DNA from: Hymenobacter yonginensis
Lineage (GTDB): Bacteria; Bacteroidota; Bacteroidia; Cytophagales; Hymenobacteraceae
DNA length: 64,000 nt
NCBI RefSeq assembly: GCF_027625995.1
Contig: NZ_CP115396.1
Location: 1,178,001 to 1,242,000 of the forward strand
Direction: 5' to 3'
Every line of letters begins with the position of its first letter. Within the stretch, counting starts at the first letter, position 1. Under the pieces are notes generated by a model that had not been told where the DNA came from, did not search any database, and was given only the letters and a program-made list of their open reading frames with translations. Both the position numbers and the translations under genes were made by a program. Positions 36,224 through 50,620 of this stretch are shown here, one piece after another.

Positions 36224-36256
36224 TTGGCGCAATAGCCAAATCTGTGCGTACCTTTG
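36224..36256 (+). promoter_or_regulatory. Promoter of the SRP RNA gene
   Basis: TTG at 36224-36226, a 22-bp spacer and TACCTTTG at 36249-36256 fit the Bacteroidota TTG-N19-23-TAnnTTTG promoter. The RNA should start about six bases later. Confidence 0.75.
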
Positions 36257-36261
36257 ACCCG

Positions 36262-36349
36262 GCGAGTCAGAACGACCAGCTCCTGTTGAACTCCCCCAGG
36301 ACCGGAAGGTAGCAAGGGTAGACGGTTGAGCGGTGCGATTTTGGCTCGC
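36262..36349 (+). ncRNA. ffs: Signal recognition particle RNA (bacterial small type)
   Basis: An RNA of about 88 nt. The Ffh-binding domain is unmistakable: CCAGGACCGGAAGGTAGCA, with the GGAA tetraloop and the asymmetric loop. The ends pair: GCGAGTCA (36262-36269) with TGGCTCGC (36342-36349). A run of eight T residues (36350-36357) ends transcription. With Ffh it targets nascent membrane and secreted proteins to FtsY. Promoter, fold and terminator agree, so the identification is strong. Confidence 0.93.
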
Positions 36350-36415
36350 TTTTTTTTCACGGATTGCGCCGGCCCAGCCGGATTTCACGGTTGCGTGACC
36401 AATTCGCCAGTAAGC

Positions 36416-46221: not shown

Positions 46222-46252
46222 TTGCGGGGGCAGCAATCCGGTTTTACCTTTG
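46222..46252 (+). promoter_or_regulatory. Promoter of the riboswitch-controlled operon
   Basis: TTG (46222-46224), a 20-bp spacer and TACCTTTG (46245-46252) match the Bacteroidota primary-sigma promoter. The start site should fall near 46258, about 20 bases before the aptamer. Confidence 0.78.
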
Positions 46253-46280
46253 CCCTATCAATTCTTTCTAGCCCGAAGGA

Positions 46281-46380
46281 TTGTTTTTATACAGAGGCGC
46301 TGAGAGACAGGCTCGATGAAGCGTCGGCAACCACCCGGAACCCTCCGGAACGGTGCCAATTCCTGACCATATAAAAACAA
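46281..46380 (+). promoter_or_regulatory. SAM-clan (S-box-like) riboswitch aptamer without P4
   Basis: P1 is a perfect 11-bp helix: TTGTTTTTATA (46281-46291) with TATAAAAACAA (46370-46380). Inside lie AGAGG, P2b GAG/CUC with loop ACAGG (a covariant form of GGG/CCC in known S-boxes), GATGAAGCGTCGGCAACC, a P3 with CCGGA/TCCGG, and GGTGCCAATTCC. These are the conserved SAM-I core residues, with a possible loop-to-junction GGC/GCC pseudoknot. The usual P4 helix after TTCC is absent, as in SAM-IV and the SAM-I/IV variant. It is read from a canonical promoter and precedes an ATP-grasp/monooxygenase/permease gene set. Confidence 0.85.
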
Positions 46381-46398
46381 GTTGCCGTGGACGCTTCC
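46381..46398 (+). promoter_or_regulatory. Anti-aptamer strand (likely expression platform)
   Basis: GTTGCC (46381-46386) and GACGCTTC (46390-46397) are exactly complementary to GGCAAC (46326-46331) and GAAGCGTC (46318-46325) of the aptamer core, separated by a 3-base bulge. Pairing here would destroy P2 and the SAM site, so it is an alternative fold to the ligand-bound state. Confidence 0.7.
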
Positions 46399-46806
46399 AA
46401 CAACCTCCTGCATTCAACCTCCGCTTTTTTGGCTCCGGCTGCCGCGTTGCGGCTGGCGGGCCGGGGCTGTTGTTGCTGTTGTTGTCGGGCGTAGCTAGCC
46501 CTTTCTCTGTTTTTGCGGGTATGCGCCCGCCGGCGCTGCACGTCGGCCGGCTGCTGCACTGAGCGGCTTCGCGCCTGCACCTCCTCTTTTTCTCGGATTG
46601 TCGCCCGATGGCCGGGCCGGGCGCAGACTTTGCGCTCCGTTTGGCGGCCTGCGGTGGCTGCTGATTCGCTCGTTGCGCGGCTTGTGGGCGGCGTAATCGG
46701 TTAGGCCGGACTTCCGTCCCTGCGTTGTTTTTTCCCGGGAGCCGGTGGCGTTGCGCTGCTGCCGGCGCCGTTTCGTTTTTCATTTTCCGTCTTTTTGCTT
46801 CTGACT

Positions 46807-47796
46807 ATGTCATCCCTCCAAAAGCCCATTGGTATCTATTTCGAGCACCCCGAGTGGTTTAAGCCGCTGTTTGCGGAGCTGGACCGCCGCGGCCTGCCCT
46901 ACGAGAAAATCGACGCCGCCCACCACCTGTTCAACCCCTCGGAAAAGGAAAGCCGCTACAGTTTGGTGGTGAACCGCATGAGCTCGTCGGCGTACCTGCG
47001 CGGGCACGGGCAGGGCATCTTCCACACGGCCGGCTACGCCACGCATCTGGAGCGTATCGGCACGCGCATCATCAACGGCTCGGCGGCCACGGCCATCGAA
47101 ACCAACAAGGCCCGGCAGCTGTCGTTGTTTGAGTCGCTGGGGCTGAAATACCCGGCTTCGCGGGTTATCAACCACGCCTCGCGGGCCGTGGACGCCGCGC
47201 GTGAATTGCGCTTTCCGGTGGTGGTGAAGGTGAACATTGGCGGCAGCGGCGCCGGCATTATCCGCTTCGATACGCCCGAAGGCCTGCAGGCCGCCGTCGA
47301 CAACAACCAGATTGACCTGGGCATCGACCAGACGGCGCTGGTGCAGGAGTACGTGACGCCCCGCGGCGGCCATATTCACCGCGTGGAAACGCTCAATGGC
47401 AAGTTTCTCTACGCCATGAAAGTGTACACCACCGGCGAGAGCTTCAACCTGTGCCCGGCCGAAATCTGCCAGATTCCGGAAGAGCAGTCGGCCGAGTTCT
47501 GCCTGACCGAAGCCCCGAAAAAGGGCATCCAGGTGGAAGCCTTCACGCCACCCGCCGACGTAATTGAAGCCGTGGAGCGCATCGTGGCGGCCGCCAAAAT
47601 CGACGTGGGCGGCATCGAATACCTCATCGACGACCGCACCGGCGACGTGCTGTTCTACGACATCAACGCTCTGTCCAACTTTGTGGCCGACGCCGTGAAC
47701 GTGGTCGGCTTCGACCCCTACGCCCGCTTCGTGGACTACCTGGAGTCGCAGTTGCCAGTGGCGGCGGTGGCGCGGGAAGAAGTAGCCACGGTGTAG
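46807..47796 (+). CDS. ATP-grasp ligase (RimK-like), SAM-riboswitch controlled
   Basis: 329 residues from ATG 46807. An N-terminal domain (IGIYFEHPEWFKPLFAELDRRG, then LVVNRMSSSAYLR) precedes the ATP-grasp fold: nucleotide-binding VVVKVNIGGSGAGIIRF near residue 137-153, ALVQEYVTPRGGHIHRVE, and the metal site VLFYDINALSN. RimK-like enzymes join a carboxylate to an amine, often amino acids. It is the first gene after the riboswitch and is followed by an SfnG/SsuD-type monooxygenase. Its substrate is unknown; the context suggests a sulfur or methionine metabolite. The TAG stop lies within an inverted-repeat arm. Confidence 0.85.
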   Translation: MSSLQKPIGIYFEHPEWFKPLFAELDRRGLPYEKIDAAHHLFNPSEKESRYSLVVNRMSSSAYLRGHGQGIFHTAGYATHLERIGTRIINGSAATAIETNKARQLSLFESLGLKYPASRVINHASRAVDAARELRFPVVVKVNIGGSGAGIIRFDTPEGLQAAVDNNQIDLGIDQTALVQEYVTPRGGHIHRVETLNGKFLYAMKVYTTGESFNLCPAEICQIPEEQSAEFCLTEAPKKGIQVEAFTPPADVIEAVERIVAAAKIDVGGIEYLIDDRTGDVLFYDINALSNFVADAVNVVGFDPYARFVDYLESQLPVAAVAREEVATV

Positions 47797-47893
47797 AGAC
47801 GCAATATTTTGCGTCTCGTCGATGAACGATCTGCATCGCGCAGATCAAGCAACATCAGCAACGGCGAGACGCAAAATATTGCGTCTCTACATC
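47793..47893. repeat. Inverted repeat whose arms are themselves palindromes
   Basis: Arms of 27 bp (about 47793-47819 and 47867-47893) are complementary, and each holds GAGACGCAATATTTTGCGTC or its complement, a 9-bp stem with a short loop. The left arm includes the stop codon of the ATP-grasp gene. Confidence 0.88.
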
Positions 47894-47965
47894 GCAGACC
47901 GTCCCAACGATTCATATTCCACTTTATAGTCGGCCCTGCTGGCGGTAAGAGCCGCAACGAAGCGG

Positions 47966-47998
47966 TAGAGATGCTTCGGCTTCGCTCAGCATGACGTT
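47966..47998 (+). repeat. Solo GATGCTTCGGCTTCGCTCAG repeat arm
   Basis: GAGATGCTTCGGCTTCGCTC then AGCATGACG resembles the right arm of the repeat at 12122-12159. Only one arm is present. Confidence 0.65.
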
Positions 47999-48022
47999 CT
48001 ATCAATCTCAACTCAACGAACC

Positions 48023-49042
48023 ATGAAATTTGGCTATTGGATGCCCATTTTCGGGGGCTGGCTGCGCAACGTCGAGGACGAGCAGATGCCCACCGACTGG
48101 AGCTACGTGAAGCAGCTGGCGCAGCGCAGCGAAGCCCTGGGCTACGACCTGACGCTGATTGCGGAGCTGTACCTGAACGATATCAAAGGCACCGAAGCCC
48201 CGTCGCTGGAGGCTTGGAGCACGGCCGCCGCGCTGGCCGCCGTGACCGAGCAGCTGGAAATTATGGTGGCCGTGCGCCCCACTTTCCATAACCCCGCGCT
48301 GCTGGCTAAGCAGGCCGCCAACATCGATTTGATTGCGCCCGGGCGGTTGTCGCTGAACGTGGTATCGAGCTGGTGGAAGGATGAGGCCACCAAGTATGGC
48401 CTGCACTTCGAGCAGCACGACGACCGGTACGCCCGCACCCGCGAGTGGCTGGACGTGGTGACCAACGTGTGGAAGCAGGACCATTTCAGCTACGACGGCA
48501 AGTATTACCAGGTGGCCGATAACGTGCTGCAGCCCAAGCCAGCCAAAGTCCCGTTCCTGTACGCCGGCGGCGAATCGGAAGCGGCCAAGGACTTGATTTC
48601 GACCCAGTGCGACGGTTACGTGATGCACGGCGACTCGCCGGAGCTCATCGGCGCCCGCATTGCCGACATGCGTCGTCGCCGCGAACAGAAAGGCCTGCCG
48701 CCCATGAAGTTTGGCGTGGCCGGCTATACCATCGTGCGCGACTCGGAGCAGGATGTGAAAAAGGAGCTGGACCGCATCACCAACGTGAAGGCCTCGGCCT
48801 CGGGCTACGGCAACTACCAGCAGTGGCTGGCCGGCACCCAGCTGGAGCAGCAGGTGTCGCTGCACGACTACTCGGTGTCCAACCGTGGCCTGCGCACCGG
48901 CCTGACCGGCACGCCGGCCCAGCTGCAGGACCGGATTGGCGCTTTCGAGGACGTAGGCGTGGATTTCTTCCTGTTGCAGGCTAGCCCGCAGCTGGAGGAA
49001 ATGGAGCGTTTCTCCGAATCCGTTATCCAGACGCTGGTGTAG
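48023..49042 (+). CDS. LLM-class FMNH2-dependent monooxygenase, SfnG/SsuD-like
   Basis: 339 residues of the bacterial-luciferase TIM-barrel family. MKFGYWMPIFGGWLRNVED at the start, VAVRPTFHNPALLAKQAANI, DLIAPGRLSLNVVSSWWKDE, EQHDDRYARTREWLDVV and the C-terminal LTGTPAQLQDRIGAFEDVGVDFF follow the pattern of dimethylsulfone monooxygenase SfnG and alkanesulfonate monooxygenase SsuD. Such enzymes release sulfite or sulfinates from organosulfur compounds. The family call is secure; the sulfur substrate is inferred from resemblance and from the upstream SAM riboswitch. The partner flavin reductase is not in view. Confidence 0.88.
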   Translation: MKFGYWMPIFGGWLRNVEDEQMPTDWSYVKQLAQRSEALGYDLTLIAELYLNDIKGTEAPSLEAWSTAAALAAVTEQLEIMVAVRPTFHNPALLAKQAANIDLIAPGRLSLNVVSSWWKDEATKYGLHFEQHDDRYARTREWLDVVTNVWKQDHFSYDGKYYQVADNVLQPKPAKVPFLYAGGESEAAKDLISTQCDGYVMHGDSPELIGARIADMRRRREQKGLPPMKFGVAGYTIVRDSEQDVKKELDRITNVKASASGYGNYQQWLAGTQLEQQVSLHDYSVSNRGLRTGLTGTPAQLQDRIGAFEDVGVDFFLLQASPQLEEMERFSESVIQTLV

Positions 49043-49168
49043 CGTCGTTACTTTCAAACGTCAATCTCTCACGTACTGGCGGGCAGCCTGCCCCTAACCA
49101 GTTGCCTATCACCCCACTACCAGCAAGGCGCCGCTACACAACGGCTGCGTGCGTCTTCACCCTCTTTC

Positions 49169-50620
49169 ATGCTTAGAAAATCACTGGAACTGCTGCGGCA
49201 GGAGGCGGCCGAAACCGGCGCCGGAACGCTCAAACGAAGCCTGAATGGCTTCAACCTCATTACCATCGGCATCGGCGTAATTATCGGGGCGGGCCTGTTC
49301 TCGCTCACGGGCATTGCCGCCGCCAACAACGCCGGCCCGGCCGTAACGCTGTCGTTTGTGGTGGCGGCGGTGGGCTGCGCCTTCTCGGCGCTGTGCTACG
49401 CCGAGTTTGCCTCCATGGTGCCGGTGTCGGGCTCGGCCTATACTTACGCCTACGCCACCATGGGCGAGCTGTTTGCCTGGATTATCGGCTGGGACTTGGT
49501 GCTCGAATACTCGGTAGGCGCGGCCACGGTGGCCATCAGCTGGTCGCAGTACCTGCTCAAGTTCCTGAGCAAGTACGGCATCATTGTGCCGCCGCAGCTG
49601 GTGATGTCGCCGTTTGAAACGGCCACGCTGGCCGACGGCAGCACGGTGCACGGCTTTGTCAATATTCCGGCCATGCTGATTGTGCTGGCCATCACCATGA
49701 TTATCATTCGGGGCACGTCGGGCTCGGCGTGGTTCAATGCGCTGGTCGTGACGCTGAAGGTGTCGGTGGTGCTGGTGTTTATCGCGCTGGGCTGGCAGTA
49801 TATCGATCCGGCCAACTACCAACCATACATTCCGCAGAATACCGGGGTGTTTGGTGAGTTTGGCTGGAGCGGTATTCTGCGTGGGGCCGGGGTGGTGTTC
49901 TTCGTGTTCATCGGGTTTGATATCGTGGCCACCATGGCCCAGGAAACCAAGAATCCGCAGCGCAATATGCCCATCGGCATCATTGGCTCGCTCGTTATCT
50001 GCACCATTCTATTCGTGCTGTTCGGGCACGTGATGACCGGCTTGGCCAATTACACCGAGTTCAAGAACAGCGCCGCGCCGGTGGCTATTGCCATTGAGAA
50101 AACGCCTTACGCCTGGCTGTCGTCGGCCGTGATTCTGGCCATCATCATCGGCTATACCTCCGTAATTCTGGTGGACTTGCTAGGCCAGAGCCGGGTGTTT
50201 TTCAGCATGGCCAAAGACGGCCTGCTGCCCCCGGTTTTCGCCCGGATTCACGAACGGTTCCGCACGCCGCTGCAGTCAAACCTGCTGCTGGGGCTGTTCA
50301 TTGCGCTGTTCGCTGGCTTCGTGCCGATTTCGGTGGTGGGCGAGATGACGAGCATCGGTACGCTGCTGGCCTTCGTGATGGTGTGCGTAGGCATCCTCAT
50401 CATGCGCAAGCGCGAGCCCGACGCCCCGCGCGGGTTCCGCACGCCCTGGGTGCCGCTGGTGCCCATTCTCGGCATCCTGACCTGCGTGCTGATGATGGTG
50501 TCGCTGCCCTGGGAAACGTGGCTACGGCTGGCCGTATGGCTGGCTATCGGCCTGGCCATCTACTTCGGCTACGGCCGCAAGCACAGTAAGCTGGGAAATG
50601 AATTAAAAATCAAGAATTAA
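49169..50620 (+). CDS. APC-family amino acid permease
   Basis: 483 residues, about twelve membrane spans. The APC signature IGIGVIIGAGLFSLTGIAAA lies in the first span, followed by YAEFASMVPVSGSAYTYAYATMGELFAW and FVFIGFDIVATMAQETKNPQRNMPIGI, typical of the CAT/YfnA branch for cationic or neutral amino acids. It begins 126 bp after the monooxygenase gene with no terminator between them, so it may share the riboswitch-controlled transcript. A methionine or sulfur amino-acid substrate would fit but is inference. The C-terminus (LGNELKIKN) comes from AT-rich repeat-like sequence. Confidence 0.9.
   Translation: MLRKSLELLRQEAAETGAGTLKRSLNGFNLITIGIGVIIGAGLFSLTGIAAANNAGPAVTLSFVVAAVGCAFSALCYAEFASMVPVSGSAYTYAYATMGELFAWIIGWDLVLEYSVGAATVAISWSQYLLKFLSKYGIIVPPQLVMSPFETATLADGSTVHGFVNIPAMLIVLAITMIIIRGTSGSAWFNALVVTLKVSVVLVFIALGWQYIDPANYQPYIPQNTGVFGEFGWSGILRGAGVVFFVFIGFDIVATMAQETKNPQRNMPIGIIGSLVICTILFVLFGHVMTGLANYTEFKNSAAPVAIAIEKTPYAWLSSAVILAIIIGYTSVILVDLLGQSRVFFSMAKDGLLPPVFARIHERFRTPLQSNLLLGLFIALFAGFVPISVVGEMTSIGTLLAFVMVCVGILIMRKREPDAPRGFRTPWVPLVPILGILTCVLMMVSLPWETWLRLAVWLAIGLAIYFGYGRKHSKLGNELKIKN

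Follow-up and report, generated by a model that had tools for sequence, protein, structure and literature searches.

Within a 64,000-nucleotide (nt) stretch of Hymenobacter yonginensis DNA (contig NZ_CP115396.1; hereafter the window), we analysed a locus in which a promoter, an S-adenosylmethionine (SAM) riboswitch aptamer and a short leader open reading frame (ORF) ending in a run of cysteine codons stand ahead of genes for an ATP-grasp ligase, a luciferase-like monooxygenase (LLM) and an amino-acid permease (Table 1). The regulation of this conserved enzyme pair points to its purpose, namely getting sulfur.

Table 1. Positions of the features of the locus, numbered from the first letter of the window.
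Feature	Position	Strand	Assignment
Bacteroidota-type promoter, TTG-N20-TAccTTTG	46222-46252	+	Pattern scan
SAM-I riboswitch aptamer, P4-less variant	46284-46377	+	RF00162, 70.9 bits
Leader ORF, GTG start, 35 codons + stop, peptide VDASNNLLHSTSAFLAPAAALRLAGRGCCCCCCRA	46387-46494	+	
Six-Cys-codon run inside leader ORF	46468-46485	+	
ATP-grasp ligase, 329 amino acids (aa)	46807-47796	+	ArgX/LysX/RimK-like fold, family of its own
Inverted repeat, 36-nt arms, around ligase stop codon and ligase-oxygenase gap	47789-47894	+	
LLM flavin-dependent monooxygenase, 339 aa	48023-49042	+	Nearest solved relative 3rao
APC amino-acid permease, 483 aa	49169-50620	+	BcaP-like, optional partner

The ligase and its monooxygenase partner

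We compared the window with the best 80 of 525 relatives, a set that leans to Hymenobacter; the closest relative found is Hymenobacter sp. BT190 (LLM identity 99%). The ligase lies immediately 5' of the LLM in 79 of the 80 loci, and the gap between them is 12 nt or less in 52 of these 79, with the genes overlapping in 17 of the 52. Of 100 genomes searched in the family, the same 25 carry both genes, adjacent to each other, and presence and absence are concordant in all 100. The pairing, which the initial annotation had proposed to look for in other genomes, is close to obligate. It is also rare across Bacteroidota, since the LLM occurred in just 6 of 296 genomes of a phylum-wide sample, one of them being the query genome. 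Three of these six LLMs are divergent (49% identity) and each adjoins a 32% ligase, and the ten ORFs surrounding one of these divergent pairs (L129; photolyase, histidine kinase, outer-membrane protein and others) give no hint of sulfur. A Planctomycetota sample had the LLM in 1 of 246 genomes, namely the query's own, and viral contigs scanned with an LLM alignment yielded no relative. For ATP-grasp matches in Mesorhizobium (L135) and Pediococcus (L217), the listed annotation shows no LLM; a tblastn search with the LLM of the window listed no match in L135 or in Acetoanaerobium (L134), a record that is unannotated.

In Deinococcus the pair recurs with another ATP-grasp family: on two plasmids an LLM of the window's type (58-60% identity) stands behind an ATP-grasp protein just 22-23% identical to the window's. 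The D. deserti ATP-grasp had no Pfam match at 1e-5, and directly 5' of its pair lie genes for the D-cysteate sulfo-lyase CuyA (535 bits, cut-off 450) and the cysteate racemase CuyB (271 bits, cut-off 190); in D. peraridilitoris, a SAM riboswitch (60.6 bits) stands ahead of the ATP-grasp gene (22% identical to that of the window) and of an LLM of this type. On a haloarchaeal plasmid (L133:5935-8609) a Deinococcus-type ATP-grasp (34%) stands with an LLM that belongs to the NtaA/DmoA family (541 bits against a cut-off of 279.7), which suggests that the pairing reaches beyond bacteria. Spirosoma oryzicola has, behind a ligase of the window type (77%), two permeases and an SsuD-like LLM that is 22% identical to the window LLM, and S. 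validum (L042) has both LLM types within one cluster. Ligases and LLMs are swapped; their combination persists.

The ligase, RimK-like in the initial annotation, has the ATP-grasp superfamily fold and matches Pfam RimK (24.7 bits, cut-off 21). Its assignment as RimK itself failed against the curated cut-off (TIGR00768, 62 against 143.4), as did that as LysX (TIGR02144, 38 against 275.6). The listed rows put it at 16-20% identity to LysX, ArgX and RimK, far under the family cut-offs, and it differs from them in a low-confidence loop at residues 216-240 carrying conserved cysteines; C216, C221 and C232 are invariant across 25 ligases.

The LLM contains a Bac_luciferase domain (198.3 bits, cut-off 27.9) that places it in the LLM flavoprotein superfamily. 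The proposed resemblance to SfnG and SsuD is real in that the SfnG/SsuD/MsuD group supplies its best-scoring named families, with a match near full-length, but the protein falls under both curated cut-offs and can be named neither SfnG (TIGR04021, 238.9 against 382.95) nor SsuD (TIGR03565, 171.4 against 518.2). Among solved relatives with a name, those nearest to it are dimethylsulfone and alkanesulfonate monooxygenases, and the closest solved sequences are 3rao, of unnamed function and presumably from Bacillus cereus, and 8vw6, deposited as an alkanesulfonate monooxygenase. At one Planctomycetota locus (L075:6265-6858) the LLM is closely trailed by a nitroreductase-family protein, a possible flavin reductase for it.

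A SAM aptamer followed by a cysteine-run leader

The SAM riboswitch named in the initial annotation stands: the RF00162 match well exceeds the gathering score of 44.4 bits (E 1.4e-14), and this score, together with recurrence at 43 relatives, rules out a spurious or chance riboswitch. The aptamer lies directly 5' of the ligase in 43 of the 80 loci as well as in the window, and the association of the pair with SAM riboswitches is seen across genera and also in one Deinococcus, whose ATP-grasp is of another family. The promoter that had been described as canonical is present as a pattern but is of the Bacteroidota type and not sigma-70-like; the scan found no sigma-70-like promoter on the + strand ahead of the ligase, its sole promoter-like site being on the - strand. 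Using what we take to be the Bacteroidota consensus, we found TTG-N17to23-TAnnTTTG within 100 nt upstream of 31 of 44 ligase-class aptamers, against 0.34% of shuffles.

The core sequence and helices P1-P3 of the aptamer are as in RF00162. There is no P4 helix in the window aptamer, in which CCTGACC continues directly into the 3' strand of P1, and we therefore term it a P4-less variant. The 44 ligase aptamers comprise 30 without P4, all from Hymenobacter or Solirubrum, 4 with an alternative hairpin and 10 with P4, from Rufibacter, Pontibacter, Nafulsella and three Flavobacteriia genera. A normal P4 is also missing from the SusC, cysH and APC aptamers examined in Hymenobacter/Solirubrum, whereas P4 is kept in those examined ahead of metH and metY in three Hymenobacter genomes. 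Such P4-less aptamers ahead of Hymenobacter ligase, SusC and cysH genes, found in the window and at L001:6324-6417, L136:9418-9509 and L138:10320-10411, constitute, beside the P4-keeping metH and metY aptamers, a natural test of the role of P4.

The leader ORF opens with GTG 9 nt past the aptamer, and its peptide ends in GRGCCCCCCRA, with six consecutive cysteines. It has 35 codons in the window and in 11 Hymenobacter relatives, with conserved ends and a variable middle, in a comparison of 12 hand-chosen leaders that left out L006, L007 and L012, the last two of which have shorter ORFs. We scored a leader as positive if an ATG or GTG ORF started within 15 nt of the aptamer and had three or more Cys among its final 12 residues, and applied this to 79 deduplicated SAM sites, from which a weak match (L025, 32.5 bits) and several other riboswitch matches were left out. 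Positive sites were those ahead of the ligase (43/44), metY (6/6) and the single cysH, APC, M14 and PhyH-family dioxygenase genes (1/1 each), together with four of seven other sites, which precede two Cys/Met pyridoxal phosphate (PLP) enzymes, a sulfatase and an ORF of 157 aa that has no Pfam family. Sites ahead of metH (0/7), metB/C-like (0/2), iscS-like (0/1), thrC-like (0/2) and glutamate-dehydrogenase-family (0/1) genes were negative. When the ligase leaders were shuffled preserving dinucleotides, 30 of 4400 sequences (0.7%) passed. One example each was checked against NCBIfam: cysH and the metY-type enzyme scored above cut-off, and the metH example, truncated by the locus end, reached 733 of 1011 bits, below the full-length cut-off; the remaining gene labels come from blastp clustering or Pfam, and those of metB/C, iscS and thrC from reading the sequence.

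SAM riboswitches in these lineages thus fall into two classes, one serving methionine synthase and the other, the Cys-leader class, serving mostly sulfur acquisition. Because the Cys leader is shared with metY sites and absent from metH sites, the ligase-LLM locus is sorted with the sulfur-acquisition genes. Two Chryseolinea sites extend the range of downstream genes: a SAM aptamer and Cys leader (ending CCC) precede a sulfatase at L057:11593-14348, a further sulfur-acquisition gene of the same class, and the same arrangement precedes the PhyH-family dioxygenase at L108:1501-2806, possibly another sulfur-releasing oxygenase. Poly-Cys matches in L033 and L050, the latter 760 nt upstream, were discarded as unrelated.

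Within the leader, AACAAC codons are predicted to pair with the Cys codons, an element so nearly invariant that it carries no covariation support, and no consistent intrinsic terminator was found in a scan of the window and in 19 leaders. The combination of SAM aptamer, Cys run and predicted AACAAC/Cys pairing suggests a two-input switch, compatible with either an OR or an AND gate. Known SAM-I (S-box) riboswitches differ from the window in that here a Cys leader ORF trails the aptamer. The leader itself has the hallmarks of polycysteine leaders: a short ORF between promoter and operon in which a run of Cys codons comes shortly before the stop. Work by Canestrari in 2020 reportedly dealt with such leader peptides of cys operons. 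Polycysteine leader peptides are described for Mycobacterium and Propionibacterium cys operons, and they resemble the window leader as short upstream ORFs whose Cys run lies close to the stop, with no obvious terminator (PMC1262725); unlike them, the window type occurs in Bacteroidota and starts 5-12 nt past a SAM aptamer. The Rhodobacterales uORFC-8-2 motif ahead of cysS is likewise an upstream ORF with Cys codons, but differs in having two of them and an intrinsic terminator, and the part of the source available describes no riboswitch (PMC8632094).

The regulation of the pair is shared with uptake genes as well as with metY and cysH. SusC, SusD and an M14 zinc carboxypeptidase adjoin the pair in 13 of the 80 loci, and in H. 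rigui SusC, SusD, M14, ligase and LLM genes are co-directional behind one SAM aptamer. Where they are unlinked from the pair, SusC/SusD, M14 and APC genes can keep their own SAM aptamer: H. roseosalivarius has separate SAM-SusC-SusD-M14 and SAM-APC arrangements (its APC protein being 83% identical to the window permease), and Rufibacter has SAM-M14 and SAM-SusC-SusD. The cysH gene of BT190 also lies downstream of a SAM aptamer. The window permease matches AA_permease_2 (189.6 bits) and scores below the BcaP transporter cut-off (NF053761, 560.8 against 690). Genes for MetN, MetI and MetQ, all above cut-off, lie directly 3' of the LLM in L056, and L078 has convergent MetQIN homologues; 'MetN' candidates in L026, L032 and L033 were rejected as merely 32-35% identical ABC ATPases. 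Elsewhere in the window, a Bacteroidales-type small signal recognition particle RNA lies at 36253-36355 (RF04183, 72.5 bits).

Proposed sulfur acquisition and its alternatives

We consider the locus to be, probably, a sulfur-acquisition operon that combines SAM/Cys-gated uptake, conjugation by the ligase and C-S cleavage by the LLM, the chemistry being a prediction. On the best reading of the sequences, the ligase would conjugate the substrate or its product and the LLM would cleave a C-S bond, making the pair an organosulfur-scavenging module. Low SAM, and probably also low charged Cys-tRNA, would cause the leader to permit expression of the operon, the Cys run being expected to stall ribosomes upon Cys-tRNA shortage. 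The permease, or in relatives SusC/SusD with the M14 carboxypeptidase or MetNIQ, would then import an amino-acid- or peptide-like organosulfur compound, with which the ligase would form an amide, probably to mask an amine or a carboxylate in the manner of the structurally related LysX and ArgX. Finally, with reduced flavin and O2, the LLM would break the C-S bond to release sulfite or sulfinate for MetY. Salvage of S-alkylcysteine in Bacillus proceeds by N-acylation and then C-S cleavage by an LLM. The logic of masking the amine before LLM cleavage would be common to both systems, but the Bacillus route uses an acetyltransferase and another LLM subfamily where the window has an ATP-grasp ligase. 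The substrate, the direction and sequence of the reactions and the way in which SAM and Cys gate the operon are inferences; as a first guess, the substrate would be an amino-sulfonate or a sulfone-like amino acid. Of the SAM-controlled ligase/oxygenase sulfur pathway outlined in the initial annotation, the conserved pair and its co-occurrence with SAM riboswitches hold up, and the idea that it forms and then oxidatively cleaves a compound is plausible, but the suggestion that it stores one found no support.

Several observations weigh against this interpretation. On the enzyme side, the sulfonate-binding R/H pair aligned from SsuD, which we take to be R226 and H228, is replaced in the window LLM, and the more distant LLM relatives include RutA, which acts on a bond other than C-S. 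One locus, a contig of a Gemmata metagenome-assembled genome (L076), has an LLM next to which no ligase was found, and one of the two LLM copies of genome G088 is interrupted by an in-frame stop. The permease, initially taken as the third member, is a frequent neighbour with one unlinked copy under its own SAM riboswitch, but it is not obligate, flanking the pair in only 19 of the 80 loci. The cysteate genes occur in one of the two Deinococcus records, and that record is without a SAM riboswitch. On the regulatory side, 37 of the 80 loci have no SAM aptamer immediately at the ligase; among them are six loci truncated on the upstream side, L076, which has no ligase, and L030, where the aptamer precedes a co-directional SusC gene. 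At the Rfam gathering score no SAM riboswitch was found in L111, L129-L131, L133, L216, L042, L055 or L075, nor in L056 and L080, whose upstream side is only partly covered. SusC sites pass the Cys-leader test in one case of three, the other two being Cys-rich yet below it; a SusC-like site (L145) has no leader ORF (0/1), and the D. peraridilitoris SAM site also fails (0/1). Since none of 70 further Bacteroidota SAM sites examined (of 111 matches listed) passes, with L178 and L206 having 2 Cys, the leader device is lineage-restricted.

The window itself adds a point against co-transcription, in that the 226-nt ligase-LLM gap and the inverted repeat that occupies part of it could reduce read-through from ligase to LLM. 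As the initial annotation had it, no terminator was evident between the genes, and none was called by the scan in this gap on the + strand, but a weak terminator-like site (49030-49046) overlaps the 3' end of the LLM gene; the scan found 4 terminator-like sites where 3.2 were expected, which is about chance. The repeat looks like an intergenic repeat element. By eye it is absent from the BT190 gap, which holds a different repeat-like stretch instead.

An alternative that we regard as unlikely is methionine and peptide scavenging, in which Met-peptides would be taken up by SusC/SusD, M14, APC and MetNIQ, and the pair would process a damaged methionine derivative, for example methionine sulfone, a sulfone like the substrate of SfnG. 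The MetNIQ genes of L056 and L078 and the SusC/SusD/M14 neighbours described above argue for it, but MetNIQ occurs in just 2 of the 80 loci, the Cys leader suggests a general supply of reduced sulfur, and the context in D. deserti is cysteate. That the pair is instead biosynthetic, making a sulfur-containing peptide-like metabolite (a thiol, osmolyte or storage compound) under sulfur-amino-acid shortage, seems to us quite improbable: an ATP-grasp with a tailoring oxygenase is a common biosynthetic pairing and the three invariant ligase cysteines would suit it, but the leader is of the same kind as those of metY and cysH, and import genes and a carboxypeptidase are linked to the pair in some loci. 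It is very improbable that riboswitch and leader govern the ligase alone in this strain, with the LLM separately transcribed for another pathway, as the window's gap and long inverted repeat might indicate, given that the genes overlap or nearly abut in most relatives and agree in presence and absence in every genome searched.

Returning to sulfur acquisition, we also put forward, as a possibility on which we would not yet rely, that this is an unreported two-enzyme sulfur-scavenging route, ATP-grasp conjugation followed by oxygenolytic C-S cleavage by an LLM, assembled at least two times with different ATP-grasp families. On this proposal its control, in Cytophagales and in some Flavobacteriia, would lie with an RNA leader that takes two inputs: the SAM aptamer, which lacks P4 in Hymenobacter, would govern how the poly-Cys leader ORF is used, and a single transcript would thereby sense both SAM and cysteine. 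The individual parts are of known kinds; in the openly licensed literature, among the matches listed, we found no description of the ligase-LLM pair or of a SAM riboswitch with a Cys leader, an absence that weighs little, and the combination is not described there. Should the proposal prove correct, the few routes known for opening organosulfur compounds would gain a ligase-dependent step, and the SAM regulon would reach further than the synthesis and transport of methionine. There would also be a natural two-input device of riboswitch and leader peptide, in a phylum for which the same literature gave no description of one.

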